Assembly (NCBI GenBank): GCA_947472765.1
Contig: CANJCM010000031.1
Coordinates: forward strand, 1-49,190
Direction: 5' to 3'
Source of the DNA: Opitutia bacterium
Lineage (GTDB): Bacteria; Verrucomicrobiota; Verrucomicrobiia; Opitutales; Opitutaceae
DNA length: 49,190 nucleotides
Shown one piece after another: positions 9,080 through 38,759 of the stretch; position 1 is the stretch's first letter, and the number at the start of each line of letters is the position of its first letter. The notes beneath the pieces were generated by a model that saw nothing but the letters and a program-made list of their open reading frames with translations, was not told the DNA's origin and did not search any database. A program made the translations under genes and the position numbers.

Positions 9080-9118
9080 CCGCCCTCAACTCTCAGCTCT
9101 CAACCCTCATCCTTCACC
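9080..9118. repeat. 7-bp degenerate tandem repeat, TCTCAAC family
   Basis: CTCAACTCTCAGCTCTCAAC and the following bases step at about 7 bp. It ends just before the stop of the next gene and is the reverse complement of the GTTGAGA array at 9968-10000. Confidence 0.65.
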
Positions 9119-9129
9119 TCGATCTCCCC

Positions 9130-9897
9130 TCACCGCCGGTAGTCGGCACCTTTCGCATCAATCACCCGGCGCAGGGCGTCCCACTCCGGCACGCCGTACT
9201 CCGGAGTCGCCCGGGCTCCTTTATAGCGGGCCGCGGCCGCCGCGACGATCGCGGGCTCCATCATGATCGGCGGCTCGCCCAGCGTCCGCGCGATCAATTC
9301 CAATTCGCAGGCTCGTTCCAGGAGGTAGAGTCGCCGCAACGTCCCGGGGATGGTGGCACCCACGGTCATCAACCCGTGATTCTGCAGGATCACGCACCCG
9401 CCCTGCTGGCAGCTCACGCCGAGCGCGTCGCACTCCTCGCGCGTCGCGGGCATCCCGTAAGGGTGATACACGAGATCGTCGTACACATGCAGCGCGTCCT
9501 GGCTGATTGGACGCAGCCCGCGCCGGACCAGCGACACGCCAGCGCCGGCCCGGGTGTGCGTATGCATCACACAATTCACATCCGGCCGCGCTTTGTACAC
9601 GCCGCTGTGAATCGTGAATCCGGCCGCATTGTAGCGACCCTGGCGCGACCCGATCACCCGCCCCTCGAGGTCCATCTTCAGCAGACCCGAGGCCGTAATC
9701 TCGTGGAAGAGGTCGCCGTGATGATTGATCAGGAAAGTTCCCGGCTCGCCCGGCACGCGCACCGACATGTGAGTTTCGAGCAGATCCGTCCAGCCGAGGT
9801 GCTCGACGATCCGATACAGTGCCGCGAGATCGCAACGCGCCTCCCACTCGGCCGGGCTTAGATCGGGGCGGGGGCTGGGAGTGGCGGCGGTCGTCAT
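9130..9897 (-). CDS. Class II aldolase/adducin family protein
   Basis: This is a 255-residue cytoplasmic protein. Its fold signature is complete: HMSVRVPG near residue 43, LINHHGDLFHEITASGLLKMD, AGFTIHSGVYKARPDVNCVMHTHT (zinc ligands His112 and His114) and NHGLMTVG (His174). The Glu used as general acid/base in L-fuculose-1-phosphate and L-ribulose-5-phosphate enzymes is not at its expected place (AAGFTIH instead), which fits the large adducin-like subgroup of unassigned function. The next gene upstream on the same strand is the enolase-superfamily dehydratase (starting at 11335), so a sugar-acid route is possible. The 200-bp gap full of repeats makes cotranscription doubtful. Confidence 0.85.
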   Translation of the reverse strand: MTTAATPSPRPDLSPAEWEARCDLAALYRIVEHLGWTDLLETHMSVRVPGEPGTFLINHHGDLFHEITASGLLKMDLEGRVIGSRQGRYNAAGFTIHSGVYKARPDVNCVMHTHTRAGAGVSLVRRGLRPISQDALHVYDDLVYHPYGMPATREECDALGVSCQQGGCVILQNHGLMTVGATIPGTLRRLYLLERACELELIARTLGEPPIMMEPAIVAAAAARYKGARATPEYGVPEWDALRRVIDAKGADYRR

Positions 9898-9967
9898 GCG
9901 TTAGGATTCAACCGGCATCACGAAACCAGCCCGCTCCCATTCGCAAGGTCGGAGTTGGGGGGTCGCT

Positions 9968-10000
9968 GAGTTGAGAGCTGAGGGTTGAGAGTTGAGAGTG
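9968..10000. repeat. 7-bp degenerate tandem repeat, GTTGAGA family
   Basis: Reads GTTGAGA, GCTGAGG, GTTGAGA, GTTGAGA in exact 7-bp steps. The same family is at 29671-29726. Confidence 0.8.
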
Positions 10001-32684: not shown

Positions 32685-32767
32685 GCCTTCGATCCGACTC
32701 ACGCGGAGCCGCGGAGTTTTCGGAGTGCAGCCCGGACTAAAGTCGGGAAACGCCCGCCTCGAGGTCT

Positions 32768-32810
32768 GAATCCTGTCCATCCTGTTCATCCTGTTCATCC
32801 TGTCTAAACC
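32768..32810 (+). repeat. CAGGAT-type repeat, copy 6, four units
   Basis: ATCCTGTCC, ATCCTGTTC, ATCCTGTTC, ATCCTGTCT in exact 9-bp steps, the most regular copy in the window. Confidence 0.85.
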
Positions 32811-32983: not shown

Positions 32984-33074
32984 CCATCCATTTTTGGACA
33001 GGATGCACAGGATGGGCAGGATTCGAACCGGGATCGGAGACTCCAATTCAGCTCACGCGGAGACGCGGAGTTTT
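32984..33074 (+). repeat. 91-bp direct repeat, left copy
   Basis: Matches 38468-38558 with two mismatches in 91 bp. It starts CCATCCATTTTTGGACAGGA, includes an inverted CAGGAT repeat and continues through unique DNA (CGGAGACTCCAATTCAGCTC) to a GCGGAGTTTT end. With its partner it brackets the three-gene operon. Confidence 0.9.
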
Positions 33075-33136
33075 TTCTTAGACCGACCGGGAGCGATAGC
33101 AGGATTTTGCCAGCGTTCGAGCGAAGCGCGCCGCCG

Positions 33137-34186
33137 CTACTTCAATTCCAGGATCTTGATATTCCGAAACCAGCACTCGTCGTTGTGGTAGGTGAGCATG
33201 ATGTGCCCGGCGATCTTCTCGCCGAATCCCGGTGCATCCTTGAATTTGCTCCCGGCCAGGCCGGCCAACACCGCCGGGCTCCCGAGTTCATACGTCAGGA
33301 CGTTATGGCCATTGAGCCAGTGTTCCACGTGCCGGCCCCGCACCACGACCTTGGAGAGGTTCCAGGTGCCGACGGGACGAAGTGCGGTTCGGGTGTTCGC
33401 CGGCAGGACATCGTAAAACGCCGCCGTGAACTGCGCCGGACCCAACGGCGCGCCGGGGTAACCCCAGTCGTCAACCATCTGGTATTCGTGACCGGGCGCC
33501 GCCGGCCGATCTTCCGTCACGAAGTATTTGATTCCGCTGTTGGCGCCATTGGCCAGCCGCCACTCCCACGTGAGCTCAAAATCCTGGAATTTCGCCTCCG
33601 TGATGAGATCCCCCGGGCCGGAGGGCTTTTCCCGACCGACGCGCGGGACGGTGTGCAGCATGCCGTCGCGGATTTCCCAGGCGCTGGCCGGCAGCCCCGA
33701 CTGGCGAAAGCCGCGCCAGCCGGTGAAGCTTGCGCCATCGAAGAGGAGTCTCCAGCCGGCGGCTCGTTCCGCGTTGGTGAGCCAGTTGATCGGCTTCGAT
33801 GCAGCGGGGCCATCGGGGCCATTGATCACCGGATCCGAAATCCAGCGGGCGAGCCGCTGGTACTCCGCATTCATGTCGTAGCGGATTTCGTCGTACCGGG
33901 TCTGATCGTAGTTCGCCCGCAGATCGAAGACGCGTTTCCGGAGGAAATCCACGTTCAGCTTCGTCCCGCCGCGCACCTGGATGTCCGTGACCGAATTCAA
34001 CACCGTGTCGAAGCGCGCGAATTCCCGGTCGATTTCCCGAAAATGCGCCTGCTGTTCCTCGGTCAGCGGCGGGGGCTCGGCGGCGGATAGGTGGTGAACC
34101 ACCAAGGCACCAAGCACACAGAGAATACCGGCCAACCTCTGCGCCTTTGTGCCTCTGTGGTTCAACTGTAGCGATTGCCGCCTCAC
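33137..34186 (-). CDS. DUF1080 protein with N-terminal extension, 3-ketoglycoside hydrolase-like
   Basis: This is a 349-residue protein. A signal-like hydrophobic segment (LAGILCVLGALVVHHLSAA) is followed by a helical stretch of about 100 residues (FREIDREFARFDTVLNSVTD) that the paralogue at 2606 lacks. The DUF1080 domain then starts at WRLLFDGASFTGWRGF and shares NSGIKYFVTEDRPAAPGHEY, VVVRGRHVEHWLNG and the C-terminal YHNDECWFRNIKILEL. The expected reaction is cleavage of a 3-keto-glycoside outside the cytoplasm. Its start overlaps the DUF1552 stop by 4 bp (ATGA), so the two are translationally coupled. It is the third gene of the DUF1592-DUF1552-DUF1080 operon. Confidence 0.9.
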   Translation of the reverse strand: MRRQSLQLNHRGTKAQRLAGILCVLGALVVHHLSAAEPPPLTEEQQAHFREIDREFARFDTVLNSVTDIQVRGGTKLNVDFLRKRVFDLRANYDQTRYDEIRYDMNAEYQRLARWISDPVINGPDGPAASKPINWLTNAERAAGWRLLFDGASFTGWRGFRQSGLPASAWEIRDGMLHTVPRVGREKPSGPGDLITEAKFQDFELTWEWRLANGANSGIKYFVTEDRPAAPGHEYQMVDDWGYPGAPLGPAQFTAAFYDVLPANTRTALRPVGTWNLSKVVVRGRHVEHWLNGHNVLTYELGSPAVLAGLAGSKFKDAPGFGEKIAGHIMLTYHNDECWFRNIKILELK

Positions 34187-35520
34187 GTCGGCTCCAGGCC
34201 CTTGATGGTGCCGGTCGATGAGCCGAATTTCTCCGCCTCGATCCCCATCCGGTGGAGCATCGAGACGAAGAGATTGGACAGCGGGATGTTTCGATACCGG
34301 TCGAAGGCGATGACCTGCCCATGGCGGAAGCCGCCACCAGCGAGGATTATCGGCAGGTTCGTCGTTTCGTGCGTGTTGGAGTTTCCGAAGTTGGAACCAT
34401 ACAGGAGCATCGTCCGCTCGAGCAGCGTATCCTCACCTTCCCGCACGGCCTTGAAGTCCGCGTACAGCTTCGCGAGCAGCTTCATGTGCGACACATCGAT
34501 CGCCTTCAATTGCGCCATCCGATCCGGCTCCTGACCATGGTGCGAGAGATTGTGATAACTCTCTGTGATCGTGCTTCCCGGGACCTCAAGGACCGGGGAA
34601 CCCGCGCTATCGAGGAACAACGTGATCGCCCGCGTCGAGTCGGTCTCAAAGGCGAGTTGGGCCAGCCGATACAGCACATTCAGCTTTTCCATGTACTGCG
34701 CGGGACTGGCCGGGTCGACCGGCACCGGCGCATTAACCACCGGCTTCGGCTTATACTCCCAGCCCTTCGACGCCTGCATCTGCTTCTCGAGCGTCCGCAC
34801 GCTGGTGAAATACTGGTCCATCCGCTCCTGATCGCGGCGCGACCCCTTCGCCTCGAAACGCTTCGTCTGCTCCGCGACCGCGTCGAGCACGCTCCGCCCG
34901 CTGTCGAGTTTGCGGACCTCCGCCTCGATCTGCGCCGGCGTGCCCTGCAGGAAGAGCTGCTGGAAGACATCCGCGGCCCGCTCCTGGGGCGGGATGCCCA
35001 CGCCGTTGCCGGTGTACGAACAGCTGCGCGTCTCGCGCGTGTTCACGCCGAGGGTGATCGACGGGAACCGGGTCAGAATCCCGATTTTCTCCGCCATCGC
35101 TTGATCGAGCGAGATGGTGTTGCGAAAAGACCCGGCCCCGGGGTGCGGCGCCGCGGTGAGGAAACACTGATCCGACTTGTGCGCCCCATCGGCGCCCGGA
35201 TGATGCACCCCCATGAAAACGGTGAAGTCGCTGCGATGCTCCTGCAGCAGCTGGAGGTATTCCGACGCGACATAGTCCTTGCCGCTCCCCTGCGGGGCAT
35301 AGTGCCGCTCGAGCAGGCCGAGATTGTTGCAGATTGCGAACATTCGGCGCGGCTTGGTTTGCAGCGCCTCGCCCGCCGCGGCCGCGCGCCCGAGACCCGG
35401 CATCATCGCGTCGAGCAGGGGCAGGCCAAGGGCGATGCCCGATCCGCGCAGGAAATGGCGGCGGGACAGAGGACGACGCGTCGAGATAAATGGTCCGCAA
35501 AGTGGGGTGTTCGTTTTCAT
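34183..35520 (-). CDS. DUF1552 Tat-exported protein
   Basis: This 445-residue protein has a Tat signal (PLSRRHFLRGSGIALGLPLL). It contains the DUF1552 blocks RMFAICNNLGLLERHYAP, DYVASEYLQLLQEHRSDFTV, GVHHPGADGAHKSDQCFLT, YHNLSHHGQEPDRMAQLKAI and GSNFGNSNTHETTNLPIILA. The fold is related to alkaline-phosphatase/sulfatase-like DUF1501 proteins, but the function is unknown. In PVC genomes DUF1552 genes are almost always beside a DUF1592-type cytochrome gene, as here, so the two products likely form one extracytoplasmic redox complex. It lies 110 bp downstream of that gene and overlaps the DUF1080 start by 4 bp. Confidence 0.9.
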   Translation of the reverse strand: MKTNTPLCGPFISTRRPLSRRHFLRGSGIALGLPLLDAMMPGLGRAAAAGEALQTKPRRMFAICNNLGLLERHYAPQGSGKDYVASEYLQLLQEHRSDFTVFMGVHHPGADGAHKSDQCFLTAAPHPGAGSFRNTISLDQAMAEKIGILTRFPSITLGVNTRETRSCSYTGNGVGIPPQERAADVFQQLFLQGTPAQIEAEVRKLDSGRSVLDAVAEQTKRFEAKGSRRDQERMDQYFTSVRTLEKQMQASKGWEYKPKPVVNAPVPVDPASPAQYMEKLNVLYRLAQLAFETDSTRAITLFLDSAGSPVLEVPGSTITESYHNLSHHGQEPDRMAQLKAIDVSHMKLLAKLYADFKAVREGEDTLLERTMLLYGSNFGNSNTHETTNLPIILAGGGFRHGQVIAFDRYRNIPLSNLFVSMLHRMGIEAEKFGSSTGTIKGLEPT

Positions 35521-35629
35521 GAGCGTCAGAGGTCAGAGGGCGGAAGAAGGCGGGATTGAAGCTGTAGAAACAGGCCGTGCCGGGTGGGCGGAGCGCCGGT
35601 CCACGTTGCCGGCATCACTTGATTGGAAA

Positions 35630-38332
35630 TCATTTATTCAGGAAAACCTCACTCTGGACGACTTCGTGGATGAGGCTGCGCACGCCGAACGACCGCGCGC
35701 GGGTCTTCCTGAGCATCTCCTCGATCGCCGGTCGATCCCCGAAACGCACCGGCGAGCCGGTGGCATAGGTGACCAGCTGGCGAACAAGGTTGCGGGCGAT
35801 GATCTCCTCGTCGGCCAGGAGCAGCGACTTGAAGTCGCGCACGTCATTGAACTTCCTCCCATCCGCGAGTTCGCCAAACGGCTCCACCGGCAGCGCGTAA
35901 TGGAACGCATACGGCCAGCCGTTCTTGCCCCAGCCCGGCTCGGGGAACCGGTTGCTCGCGATGGCGCGGTAGCGCTGCCGCCAGCCGCCCAGGATGTCGA
36001 AGCTCTCGAACGCGAGCCCGAGCGGGTCGATCTTGCGATGGCAGACGGCGCAGCTCTCGTCGGCGCGATGTTTGTCGAGCTGCTGGCGGATGGTCACCGC
36101 CCCGCGGATATCCGGATCAACCGCGGGCACGGCGGCGGGCGGCGGCGGGACCTCGAAACCGAGGATATGCTCGAGCACCCACTTGCCGCGCATGACGGGC
36201 GACGTGGTCGTGCCGTTGGCGCTCACCTTGAGGATGCTGGCCTGGGTCAGGAATCCGCCGCGCTCGGTTCCCGCCGGCAGCGCCACCGGGCGCATTGCCA
36301 CGCCCTCGACCCCGTGGAGCCCATAGTGGCTGGCGAGCCGTTCGTTCAGGAAGGTGTAGTCGGAATCAACGACGTTGCGGGCCGGCAGGTCGCGGGCGAC
36401 GAGGTCGCTGAAAAACAGCCGCGTCTCGGCCTGCGCCGCCTCGACCAGCGAATCGTCGAGATAGTAGTCGTTGTACAGCTTCTCGTCCGGGGACGTCTCG
36501 TCCATTTTCCGCAGTTCCAGCCAGTAATCGAGAAACGCATCCATGAACCGGGCGGACTTCGGATGCCGCAGCAATCGCTCCGTTTCCTCGCGGAGCACCT
36601 CGGGACGGTGCAACTCGCCGCGCCGGGCGCGTTCCCGCAAGGCCGGGTCGGGCTCGGAATTCCACAGGAAAAACGCCAGCCGGGTCGCCAGCGCGAAGTC
36701 GTCGAGTTTTCCCGGCGCCTCGTCGATGTAAACGAACTCGGGCGACGACAGGATCGCCGTGTAGGTCGCGAGCATCGAATCCGCGAAGCTGAACTTCATC
36801 GCCCCGAAGTGCTGGTGGAAGAGTTTCAGGAAAATCTGGGTGTCGGATTCCAGCACCGGCCGGCGATAGGCCCGCGGCAGGAACGAGCGAATCAGCCGCT
36901 CGGCGTCGGCGCCGGGATTGGACGGGGTGACATCAAACTGCACGGCCGCCGCCGCTCCCCGTCCGCGACCCCGACCCCGCGCCGGTTCCGGCGTCGCCGA
37001 GGCTGCCGGTTCGCGCCGCTGTACGGGGAGATCCCCGAACATCAGCCGGTATCCCGCGCCGGTCTTCTCGTCGTAAAGGGGCCCCTCGACTTCCATCCAC
37101 CGGAAGGCCACGCCGGGCATGCCGTCGCGCTGCGCGAGCGGGCTGGTGTGCCCCCACGCGTTGGGCGCGGGTGATGGCCGCGGCCGGATGAGCCGGGTCG
37201 CATCCGTGATGGTCCACTCGCCGGCGTTCATCCAGATCTCGCCCAAGTCATGCACGGCGGCATCGGGCCTCAGATCGAAGGCCCCAAGCCGGCGGGCGAC
37301 TCCTCCCCCCGAATAGATGATCACCGGTTCGGAGCGTCGGCCCGGAGAGAGGTCGTCGAAGTTGGGCACATACCACCACGCCGGCTCGGCGTGGCCGCGG
37401 GGATTGGTCGGCGTCGCGTCATGGAAGTTCATCTTGTACCCGCCGGGCCCGGCCCAGACGGTGTAGCCGCTGAAGCGCATCCGATAGCGTCCCGTCACCG
37501 GCGCGGTGAAATTGCGCCAGTGCGTGAGGTAGCCGATGACGTAGTTGCTCGAGACCCAGCCTACGGCCTCCATCTCGCGGGTCTTCGGATCCGAACCGCC
37601 CACCGTGATGGGGGCCCGCCCCGCGCGCACTTCCGGTTGGGCAGAGTTGCCCAGCAGGGGGAACCAGCTGCGGTCCGGCGTGCCCGAGCCGACGCGAAAG
37701 CCCACGGTAAATTGGGTGAGGCTGTTTTCATCGCGGCCGTAGTAGCGCACGGTCTTCGTTTCCGGCTGCAGCAGCCGCGCCTTGACGACCTCCCGGAGCG
37801 CGTAGTCGGCCACGGTCATGTAACGCGCCATGTGGACGTGCGAGACATCCAGCGCCTCGCCGATCTTGTTGAATCCATTCGCCACCCCGTCCTCCGGCAG
37901 GCGGTCCTTCAGCTGCAGCCAAGGCGTGTCCAGCAGATCGCGCAGGGCGTTCTCGTATTCGTAACGATTGAGCCGCCGCCGCGTCGCCCGGCCTTCGCGC
38001 TGCACGATGGCCTGGTCCGCCGTCGTGAGCCGCGCAGCGATCGCGGCCAGGTATGCCTGCTGCTCGGCGGCCACCGGGCGCTTCTTCTCCTTCGGCGGCA
38101 TCTCGCCGGCCCGCACCCGGTCGTGAATCTTCACCCAGATCGCAAGATTCGCGGCGTCGTCCAGCGTGAAAGGCAGCGCGGTGAGATCCAGCCCGCCTTC
38201 CTTGTCCACGTCGTTATGGCAGCTTGAGCAATGCCGATCCGTGAAGGCAAACGGATCGAATTCCGCCGCGGGCGCGCGAGCGGCGAGCGCGAAGCCGGCC
38301 GCCGCGAGCGCGCCACGGACAAGACGATACAT
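35630..38332 (-). CDS. DUF1592-type multidomain c-type cytochrome (DUF1587/1592/1588/1585)
   Basis: This is a 900-residue exported protein. I choose the ATG at 38332 (signal LVRGALAAAGFALAARAPAA); another ATG six codons upstream is possible. The N-terminal cytochrome-like domain has CSSCH at residues 35-39 and MPPKEKKRP as an axial-ligand candidate. RRLNRYEYENALRDLLDTP starts DUF1587. A carbohydrate-binding-like beta insert follows, then DUF1595/1592 (FLPRAYRRPVLESDTQIFL, LATRLAFFLWNSEPDPALRE) and DUF1588/1585 with a second CAVCH at about 761-765. These proteins are abundant in Planctomycetes and Verrucomicrobia and pair with DUF1552. They are presumed to oxidise or bind polysaccharide with electron transfer, but no reaction is proved. 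Confidence 0.9.
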   Translation of the reverse strand: MYRLVRGALAAAGFALAARAPAAEFDPFAFTDRHCSSCHNDVDKEGGLDLTALPFTLDDAANLAIWVKIHDRVRAGEMPPKEKKRPVAAEQQAYLAAIAARLTTADQAIVQREGRATRRRLNRYEYENALRDLLDTPWLQLKDRLPEDGVANGFNKIGEALDVSHVHMARYMTVADYALREVVKARLLQPETKTVRYYGRDENSLTQFTVGFRVGSGTPDRSWFPLLGNSAQPEVRAGRAPITVGGSDPKTREMEAVGWVSSNYVIGYLTHWRNFTAPVTGRYRMRFSGYTVWAGPGGYKMNFHDATPTNPRGHAEPAWWYVPNFDDLSPGRRSEPVIIYSGGGVARRLGAFDLRPDAAVHDLGEIWMNAGEWTITDATRLIRPRPSPAPNAWGHTSPLAQRDGMPGVAFRWMEVEGPLYDEKTGAGYRLMFGDLPVQRREPAASATPEPARGRGRGRGAAAAVQFDVTPSNPGADAERLIRSFLPRAYRRPVLESDTQIFLKLFHQHFGAMKFSFADSMLATYTAILSSPEFVYIDEAPGKLDDFALATRLAFFLWNSEPDPALRERARRGELHRPEVLREETERLLRHPKSARFMDAFLDYWLELRKMDETSPDEKLYNDYYLDDSLVEAAQAETRLFFSDLVARDLPARNVVDSDYTFLNERLASHYGLHGVEGVAMRPVALPAGTERGGFLTQASILKVSANGTTTSPVMRGKWVLEHILGFEVPPPPAAVPAVDPDIRGAVTIRQQLDKHRADESCAVCHRKIDPLGLAFESFDILGGWRQRYRAIASNRFPEPGWGKNGWPYAFHYALPVEPFGELADGRKFNDVRDFKSLLLADEEIIARNLVRQLVTYATGSPVRFGDRPAIEEMLRKTRARSFGVRSLIHEVVQSEVFLNK

Positions 38333-38759
38333 GGGAGACCTGGGGTTCATCTCTGGGGTTGAGACTAGGGCCGTTGACACCTTGTGCGGGATCGAACGAC
38401 GGTCAACGCCATAGCCTTGGCGACGGCGCGGAGGTGGAATCGGAGCCGATAAAGGGGTCGGGCCCGCCCATCCATTTTTGGACAGGATGTACAGGATGGG
38501 CAGGATTCGAACCGGGATCGGAGACTCCAATTCAGCTCACGCGGAGCCGCGGAGTTTTGCGGATTCTCGTCGGCCGAAGATACCTTCGCTGGCCGCACGT
38601 AGCACCACGTCATGTTCGAAATGCGGAAATCCGAAGCTCGAACTCTGCCGCTCGATCCCCAGCTGCTTCCTCTGCGCCCTCCCTTAACCTCTGTGCCCTC
38701 TGCGTTCCAGGCTCGGGCCTAAATCGAAAATCGAGAATGCCGCCGGCTTGGCGGGCGGC
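38333..38759. other. Gene-free stretch with the right flank of the DUF1592 operon
   Basis: Holds the right 91-bp direct repeat (38468-38558), whose start is an inverted CAGGAT copy, and a CTCTGCG-type stretch (about 38669-38715). The operon promoter should lie between 38340 and 38460. Confidence 0.65.
38468..38558 (+). repeat. 91-bp direct repeat, right copy
   Basis: Same orientation as 32984-33074, with two base differences (GATGT for GATGC and GAGCC for GAGAC). It lies about 135 bp upstream of the operon start. Confidence 0.9.

Follow-up and report, generated by a model that had tools for sequence, protein, structure and literature searches.

Direct repeats on either side of a DUF1592 operon in an Opitutia bacterium: probable local copies of gap DNA with arm fragments of GxxExxY-type elements

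Insertion sequences and miniature inverted-repeat transposable elements (MITEs) are built on the plan of a gene between terminal inverted repeats. Repetitive extragenic palindromic (REP) sequences and REPINs, which are associated with REP-associated tyrosine transposases (RAYTs, also TnpA-REP), occur as short intergenic sequences dispersed through genomes, in inverted pairs and in tandem arrays. The closest printed analogue that we found of the repeats described here is the TAACTGA heptamer of Beggiatoaceae, Cyanobacteria, and Bacteroidetes, a short-period intergenic direct repeat of distant lineages for which horizontal transfer was proposed with no evident mechanism (PMC4679880); its word and period are different, and the accessible part of that article suggests translational regulation and names no bracketed nuclease gene. 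Our subject is positions 1-49,190 of contig CANJCM010000031.1 of an Opitutia bacterium (assembly GCA_947472765.1; hereafter the window), in which an operon of DUF1080, DUF1552, and DUF1592 genes lies between two 91-bp direct repeats, R1 and R2 (together R). In domain make-up and in its many paralogues this operon resembles the planctomycete-specific cytochrome c and PSD gene clusters known from freshwater Verrucomicrobia, for which the part of the report available mentions no flanking repeats (PMC5615132).

R1 and R2 are probably locally copied gap DNA that holds two arm fragments of GxxExxY-type elements, and the operon is not their cargo. The parent element would consist of a GxxExxY gene (PD-(D/E)XK superfamily) between inverted arms of ~30 bp; such elements would settle in the junctions between genes, where their decay would leave arm pairs without a gene or single arms. 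A gap segment joining, in the same orientation, an arm of one word (W1, module A below) and an arm of another (CGCGGAG, module B) would then have been copied locally, leaving direct repeats on either side of the operon. Hereafter G000 denotes this genome and other G numbers further genomes, of which G003, G004, G010, and G022 are congeners; C stands for contig and L for locus.

Direct alignment bore out what a sequence-only reading had reported, namely that two stretches of 91 bp in the same orientation match at 89 of 91 positions and enclose the three genes (33137-38332). The copies are spaced 5484 bp apart and differ at repeat positions 23 (C/T) and 80 (A/C). Their match is beyond chance, and they rank first in identity among 12 repeat pairs (≥60 bp, ≥90%) in 256 kb of own DNA. 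A search of the genome (96% complete, in 157 contigs) with the 91-mer returned 66 matches, 2 of full length and 64 partial, the latter all inside repeat positions 3-59; because 40 of 131 candidates were scored, partial copies are undercounted. Across the 27 genus genomes searched, with no more than 33 candidates scored in each, no other full copy was found. Because no other match in its own genome spans the whole spacer of R, R1 and R2 are copies of one another and not two chance mosaics. Scattering of the sequence over unrelated gaps, which the sequence-only reading took as the sign of a chance bracket, applies to the modules of R but not to the full 91-mer. The recent duplication or conversion that it proposed is supported: R1 and R2 are 2.2% apart, against ~11% divergence from G004 in the rpoB region, and R2 is missing at the G004 operon. 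Because of this 2.2% difference, we would place the local copying after the split from G004. An RNA family as the identity of R was rejected, Rfam having zero matches in the window and two in six sources, both of them tRNAs in L167.

R is composed, in order, of CCATCCA, a T-run with three 9-bp units (GGACAGGATGNACAGGATGGGCAGGAT), a spacer, and CTCACGCGGAGNCGCGGAGTTTT. The T-run and the three ACAGGAT-type units make up module A, the W1 word, and module B is CTCACGCGGAGNCGCGGAG, of which the R1 and R2 versions differ by one base. Both words are over-represented in the window: the 16-base W1 pattern gave 12 overlapping matches at 8 places, with 0.01 expected, and the 17-base module B pattern 5 matches (≤2 mismatches), with 0.27 expected, another exact copy lying at 32700.

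The W1 word also occurs far beyond this genome. A search pattern of 22 fixed bases (GACAGGATNNACAGGATNNACAGGAT), for which a base-count estimate gives ~0.03 expected matches on both strands of 257 Gb, was found in at least 119 stretches of that DNA. The matches listed come from 19 named phyla, one archaeal, and 16 of the 19 retain at least one listed match that is T-rich on its 5' side and free of long arrays; the listed carriers are mostly metagenome bins, with Thiobaca trueperi and Spirosoma arboris among the cultured ones. Within the phylum, 28 of 288 genomes contain the pattern, compared with 2 for its reversed and 1 for its scrambled form. Viral contigs supplied 49 stretches with W1, and some matches are tandem or coding arrays (e.g., L144, G136). 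An inverted partner (≤2 substitutions) stands within 250 bases in 62 of the 140 matches listed. W1 avoids long frames, since 37 of 100 matches (taken with 600 bases on either side) lie in a stop-free frame of at least 200 codons vs 83% of 1000 random positions. Among the 9-mers enriched near W1, variants of the word itself and the T-run ranked first; no second word stood out as its partner across phyla. Six W1 16-mers were printed in no paper of the literature searched, which is weak evidence because the search was open-access only, and six 13-14-mers of the word matched papers on unrelated subjects only. ACAGGAU is similar to the CsrA consensus; CsrA-like RNA binding was put aside as an explanation of the word, and W1 is present in archaea as well.

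When 720 open frames in the 119 W1 loci listed were clustered, those within 1.5 kb of the word were led by an ABC-transporter type (four loci), followed by GxxExxY (three loci); the former cluster was set aside as a common gene. The GxxExxY protein scored 145 bits against TIGR04256 (cut-off 35) and 138 bits against PF13366 (cut-off 22). Judging from its conserved E, D, and (E/D)xK, each kept in 44 of 44 proteins and corresponding to the catalytic residues of the PD-(D/E)XK superfamily, it belongs to that superfamily. It had no match among PDB sequences at E up to 1, two GxxExxY proteins had none in PHROGs, PADLOC returned only a weak Cas4 match (E 0.0088) for one of two, and none of four pattern-matching stretches from viral contigs was confirmed as GxxExxY. 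PF13366 was found in 10 of 11 genomes searched, a biased sample pre-chosen as carriers of W1 words or 91-mer matches, and 30 of the 42 matches listed were made into loci for analysis of their flanks.

Most of these 30 loci have, by eye, inverted arms of ~30 bp, each with a T-rich end and 8-9-bp quasi-repeats, whose words vary from locus to locus (ACAGGAT, CACGAAG, CACGAAA, CACTGAT, CACAGAG, CGCGGAG, ACGAAT, and others). We scored the 220-base upstream flank against the reverse-complemented 220-base downstream flank; the median was 20.5 for own flanks vs 8.5 for mismatched loci. In 28 of the 30 GxxExxY loci the match was above the 95% null, compared with 3 of 27 window genes (codon-model calls); in 24 of the 30, the downstream flanks of other loci all scored lower than the locus's own. 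The test failed in L317 and L327, and the match of L334 is by eye not a periodic word. Because L322/L329, L312/L321, L314/L336, L320/L323, and L337/L339 are orthologues by eye, the 30 loci are not all independent. Three further GxxExxY loci of G000 have matching arms, with scores of 21-34. The elements would resemble MITEs and insertion sequences in their inverted ends, in internally deleted or gene-less derivatives, and in occupied and empty sites, but their arms are locus-specific yet matched within a locus and made of 8-9-bp quasi-repeats, the protein belongs to the PD-(D/E)XK superfamily rather than to a recognised class of transposase, and no target duplication was found. Upstream of GxxExxY in L312, L314, L316, L331, L333, and L375 a motif like AATTGGGGTGGA or GATTTAGGGG was noticed by eye, which could be a promoter or operator. 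On plasmids, the GxxExxY genes of L369-L371 are co-oriented in tight junctions, e.g., fabD-GxxExxY-fabG and radA-GxxExxY.

Occupied and empty sites were seen at the junction of an ABC ATPase gene and a permease gene, of which the permease was found in 25 of 27 genus genomes and the ATPase too in 23; arms, words, and gene remnants at this junction were judged by eye. GxxExxY with inverted arms occupies 8 of the 23 junctions (gap 479-507 bp; the protein match in G011 is partial), and two more, in G003 and G002, keep the arms with remnants of the gene. Inverted words without a gene are present in four (G010, G020, G018, and, nested, G017), and a bare gap of 41-42 bp in seven; G024 has 239 bp without clear arms and G022 has 73 bp. 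Because occupied, decayed, gene-less, and empty states stand side by side among congeners, the mobility of the elements, which we infer, is testable at this junction. The two arms also change in concert: in 10 orthologous arm pairs the agreement was 0.896 vs 0.788 after shuffling (maximum 0.867; 0 of 2000 shufflings reached 0.896), a shuffling that leaves shared descent in place, and an A/G switch at arm positions 7, 16, and 25 is common to both arms in 10 of 10 genomes.

The arms could instead be RNA or regulatory features, such as an mRNA stem, of a stationary GxxExxY gene, and R a dispersed regulatory word. The concerted arm change is in favor of such a role, and so are the co-orientation of GxxExxY with its neighbors in six of eight plasmid cases (the six with annotated neighbors) and the related proposal made for the TAACTGA repeats (PMC4679880). 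We nevertheless regard a regulatory origin as unlikely, given the empty, gene-less, and partly deleted states at one and the same junction and the 165 of 168 W1 loci that have no GxxExxY gene nearby. For arms that belong to small mobile elements, a paired hairpin or cruciform stage is suggested because they change in concert, and it would be this stage that the GxxExxY nuclease cuts.

Both modules of R are connected to arms of GxxExxY genes. W1 flanks six such genes, three of them (L320, L323, and L338) among the 30 loci above and three (L124, L177, and L197) found by a word scan; because L124, L320, and L323 are by eye one site, these represent four sites, and at L177 the W1 word nearest the gene is in the opposite orientation. 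Both versions of module B occur exactly in G010 at L324 (C82), 513 bp (R1 version) and 278 bp (R2 version) upstream of the GxxExxY domain, within an array of CGCGGAG inverted pairs ~240 bp apart that lies beside the gene. Among the loci examined they were found exactly nowhere else, save in the overlapping L221 and the window. The arm directly upstream of the L324 gene has CAGCTCACGCGGAGA in common with module B. R itself has the T-rich end and about three 8-9-bp quasi-repeats of an arm; it has no GxxExxY gene between arms and consists of arm fragments only.

In this genome W1-bearing segments have been copied locally. The sample comprised 73 W1 sites in 349 kb of own DNA, partly chosen for W1, and a pair was counted when the two sites aligned over 60 bp or more at 85%, with the word included. 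There were 38 such pairs, 8 far apart and 30 local; the local pairs are direct in 30 of 30 cases, over 10 contigs and at distances of 168-5484 bp, and many of them form tandem arrays with a spacing of 168-362 bp. Genes are enclosed at four loci, on C63 (PIN domain), C95 (Nramp-type transporter), C27 (Y1_Tnp), and C31 (the operon of the window). Among all repeats (80%, 45 bp), direct pairs outnumber inverted ones 25 to 8 at 0.1-10 kb and 17 to 1 beyond 10 kb on the same contig, compared with 34 to 39 between contigs; because the direct excess persists beyond 10 kb within contigs, co-orientation along the contig may contribute beside copying. In L085 (C17:51133-51945), L087 (C44:14573-15005), and L093 (C108:19-396), inverted W1 pairs are arrayed in tandem with a period of ~170-260 bp. 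In L096 (C27:38996-41032) the direct repeats around the Y1_Tnp gene are 109 bp long and 92.7% identical, and inside them lies a perfect 31-bp inverted pair (414-444 and 1473-1503). Elsewhere in the window, inverted heptamer-type repeats (9089-9138 and 9950-9999) surround an aldolase II gene (9130-9897).

Repeats of this kind bring to mind REP sequences and REPINs spread by Y1 (RAYT-like) transposases, in which case the link to GxxExxY would be incidental. G000 has seven Y1_Tnp matches, one of which is the gene bracketed by the 109-bp W1-bearing repeats, and W1 is like REP sequences in being short, dispersed, and intergenic, often in inverted pairs and in tandem arrays. The other six Y1_Tnp stretches have no W1 site, however, and G022 and G003, with 13 and 23 Y1_Tnp, have no match to R at E up to 1e-4. 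The arms of inverted W1 pairs lack the co-variation expected of a hairpin stem (14 gene-less pairs in this genome and 47 elsewhere, both small samples), and a single-sequence search of 168 W1 loci found one Y1-like frame, 964 bp from W1, vs three GxxExxY genes within 96 bp. Unlike REP sequences, W1 is shared across phyla and domains and is made of periodic units. With W1 at one of seven Y1_Tnp genes, and with Y1_Tnp counts that do not follow the repeat, we consider a REP/RAYT origin of R quite improbable. Local copying of gap DNA with GxxExxY arm fragments remains our preferred account.

The sequence-only reading had seen in R a means by which DUF1592 operons spread, that is, R1 and R2 as the ends of a composite unit that moves or multiplies by recombination between R copies. 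The copies are indeed direct and 98% identical, and the operon is common to G000, G004, and G010 in different surroundings. The G004 copy is 96% identical over 5330 bp, the homology covering window positions 33137-38465 and ending 2 bp before R2, with both flanks unrelated to the window (98% identity for the PSCyt1/DUF1592 protein); its contig, C475, is letter-identical over the 8000 bases compared to a contig of an uncultured Opitutae bin. The G010 copy is 82-84% identical; what G004 and G010 have in common with each other is the operon, its paralogue, and two short repeats (114 and 39 bp). For comparison, the rpoB region of G000 is 88.5-89.1% identical to that of G004 and 84.7% to that of G010. 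Against a composite unit, full R was found in neither G004 nor G010, nor at the operon copy of either, so that repeats do not end the moved block at its other locations in congeners. In G000 the 91-mer, which the sequence-only reading proposed to look for beside other DUF1592 operons, was at none of 15 other DUF1592 loci (16 of 60 candidates were scored, so there are at least 15). The G000-G004 block moreover changes at 33944, from 90.3% identity on the left to 97.1% on the right (log-likelihood gain 32.6 vs a permutation maximum of 10.7, n = 300); because of this change point, the recent exchange covers DUF1552-DUF1592 and begins inside the DUF1080 gene, not at R1. Other genes of the window are also scattered over different contigs in G004 and G010, to which the contig breaks of the G004 assembly (580 contigs) add, and gene order seems to have been lost in general rather than at the operon in particular. 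No transposase or recombinase lies between R1 and R2, the three genes matching solely PSCyt/PSD, DUF1552, and 3keto-disac_hyd in Pfam. Recombination of R1 with R2 (RecA-type) could in principle delete the operon, but there is no sign of its having spread it, and a composite unit is in our judgment very unlikely.

Several observations weigh against deriving R from GxxExxY elements, or against such elements as we picture them. The two modules point the same way, as do R1 and R2, and the arms of R do not form an inverted pair around a gene; none of the seven PF13366 matches of G000 is on the window contig. Only 3 of the 168 W1 loci have a GxxExxY gene (0, 7, and 96 bp from the word), G190 has 14 W1 words and zero PF13366 matches, and the lack of co-variation between the arms of gene-less W1 pairs bears on our proposal as well. 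The direct match of the flanks is stronger than the inverted one in L315, L316, L317, L318, and L324, and 8 of the 30 loci pass the direct 95% null. Among plasmid-borne GxxExxY genes clear inverted arms are present in just three of eight (Bernardetia, Sphingomonas, and Bacteroides) and were not seen in the Fusobacteria, Persicobacter, Gemmatirosa, Treponema, and Prevotella cases. No target-site duplication was found by eye at the ABC junction, where it is not definable at that divergence, and the shared descent already mentioned can enter into the agreement of the arms there. The structure model of the protein is of low confidence (mean pLDDT, the predicted local distance difference test score, 47.7 from three sequences).

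With these points in mind we put forward only tentatively, as possible rather than probable, that several bacterial phyla, and perhaps archaea, harbor a previously undescribed class of minute mobile elements, in which a GxxExxY nuclease gene lies between inverted quasi-repeat arms. Their arms would be rewritten in concert in each element, perhaps via a hairpin or cruciform on which the nuclease may act, and their gene-less remains would be the cross-phylum short-period words, including both modules of R, which may thus descend from them.

The features of the repeat pair and of the operon are collected in Table 1. The 3keto-disac_hyd family was formerly named DUF1080. The 5' end of the DUF1080 frame reads LNHRGTKAQR over a CACAGAGG-type word (34136-34159); the true start may lie downstream of this stretch, and an arm may sit within the operon.

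Table 1. Repeats, modules, and genes at the operon (positions in the window).
Feature	Position	Strand	Remark
R1, left 91-bp direct repeat	32984-33074	+	89/91 identical to R2
R2, right 91-bp direct repeat	38468-38558	+	missing from G004 operon copy
Module A of R1 (T-run and three 9-bp units, W1 word)	32991-33022	+	
Module A of R2 (W1 word)	38475-38506	+	
Module B of R1, CAGCTCACGCGGAGACGCGGAG	33049-33070	+	same 22 bases at L324:988 in G010
Module B of R2, CAGCTCACGCGGAGCCGCGGAG	38533-38554	+	same 22 bases at L324:1223 in G010
Inverted W1 word, left gap	32770-32804	-	0.2 kb from R1
Third module B copy, left gap	32700-32716	+	exact pattern match
DUF1080 / 3-keto-disaccharide hydrolase-like gene	33137-34186	-	Pfam 3keto-disac_hyd
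DUF1552 gene	34183-35520	-	Pfam HXXSHH/DUF1552
PSCyt1 / DUF1592 gene	35630-38332	-	Pfam PSD4/DUF1592 with PSCyt1, PSD2, PSD3, PSD5, PSCyt3

If the proposal is true, a single family of elements would account for a large share of the repetitive DNA in the gaps of genomes like this one, as well as for the presence of the same short periodic words in unrelated bacteria and archaea. It would also suggest a role for a widespread nuclease family (GxxExxY, PF13366, TIGR04256) that is rarely named in the literature searched, and a bracket as striking as that around the operon can be a by-product of the local copying of gap DNA.

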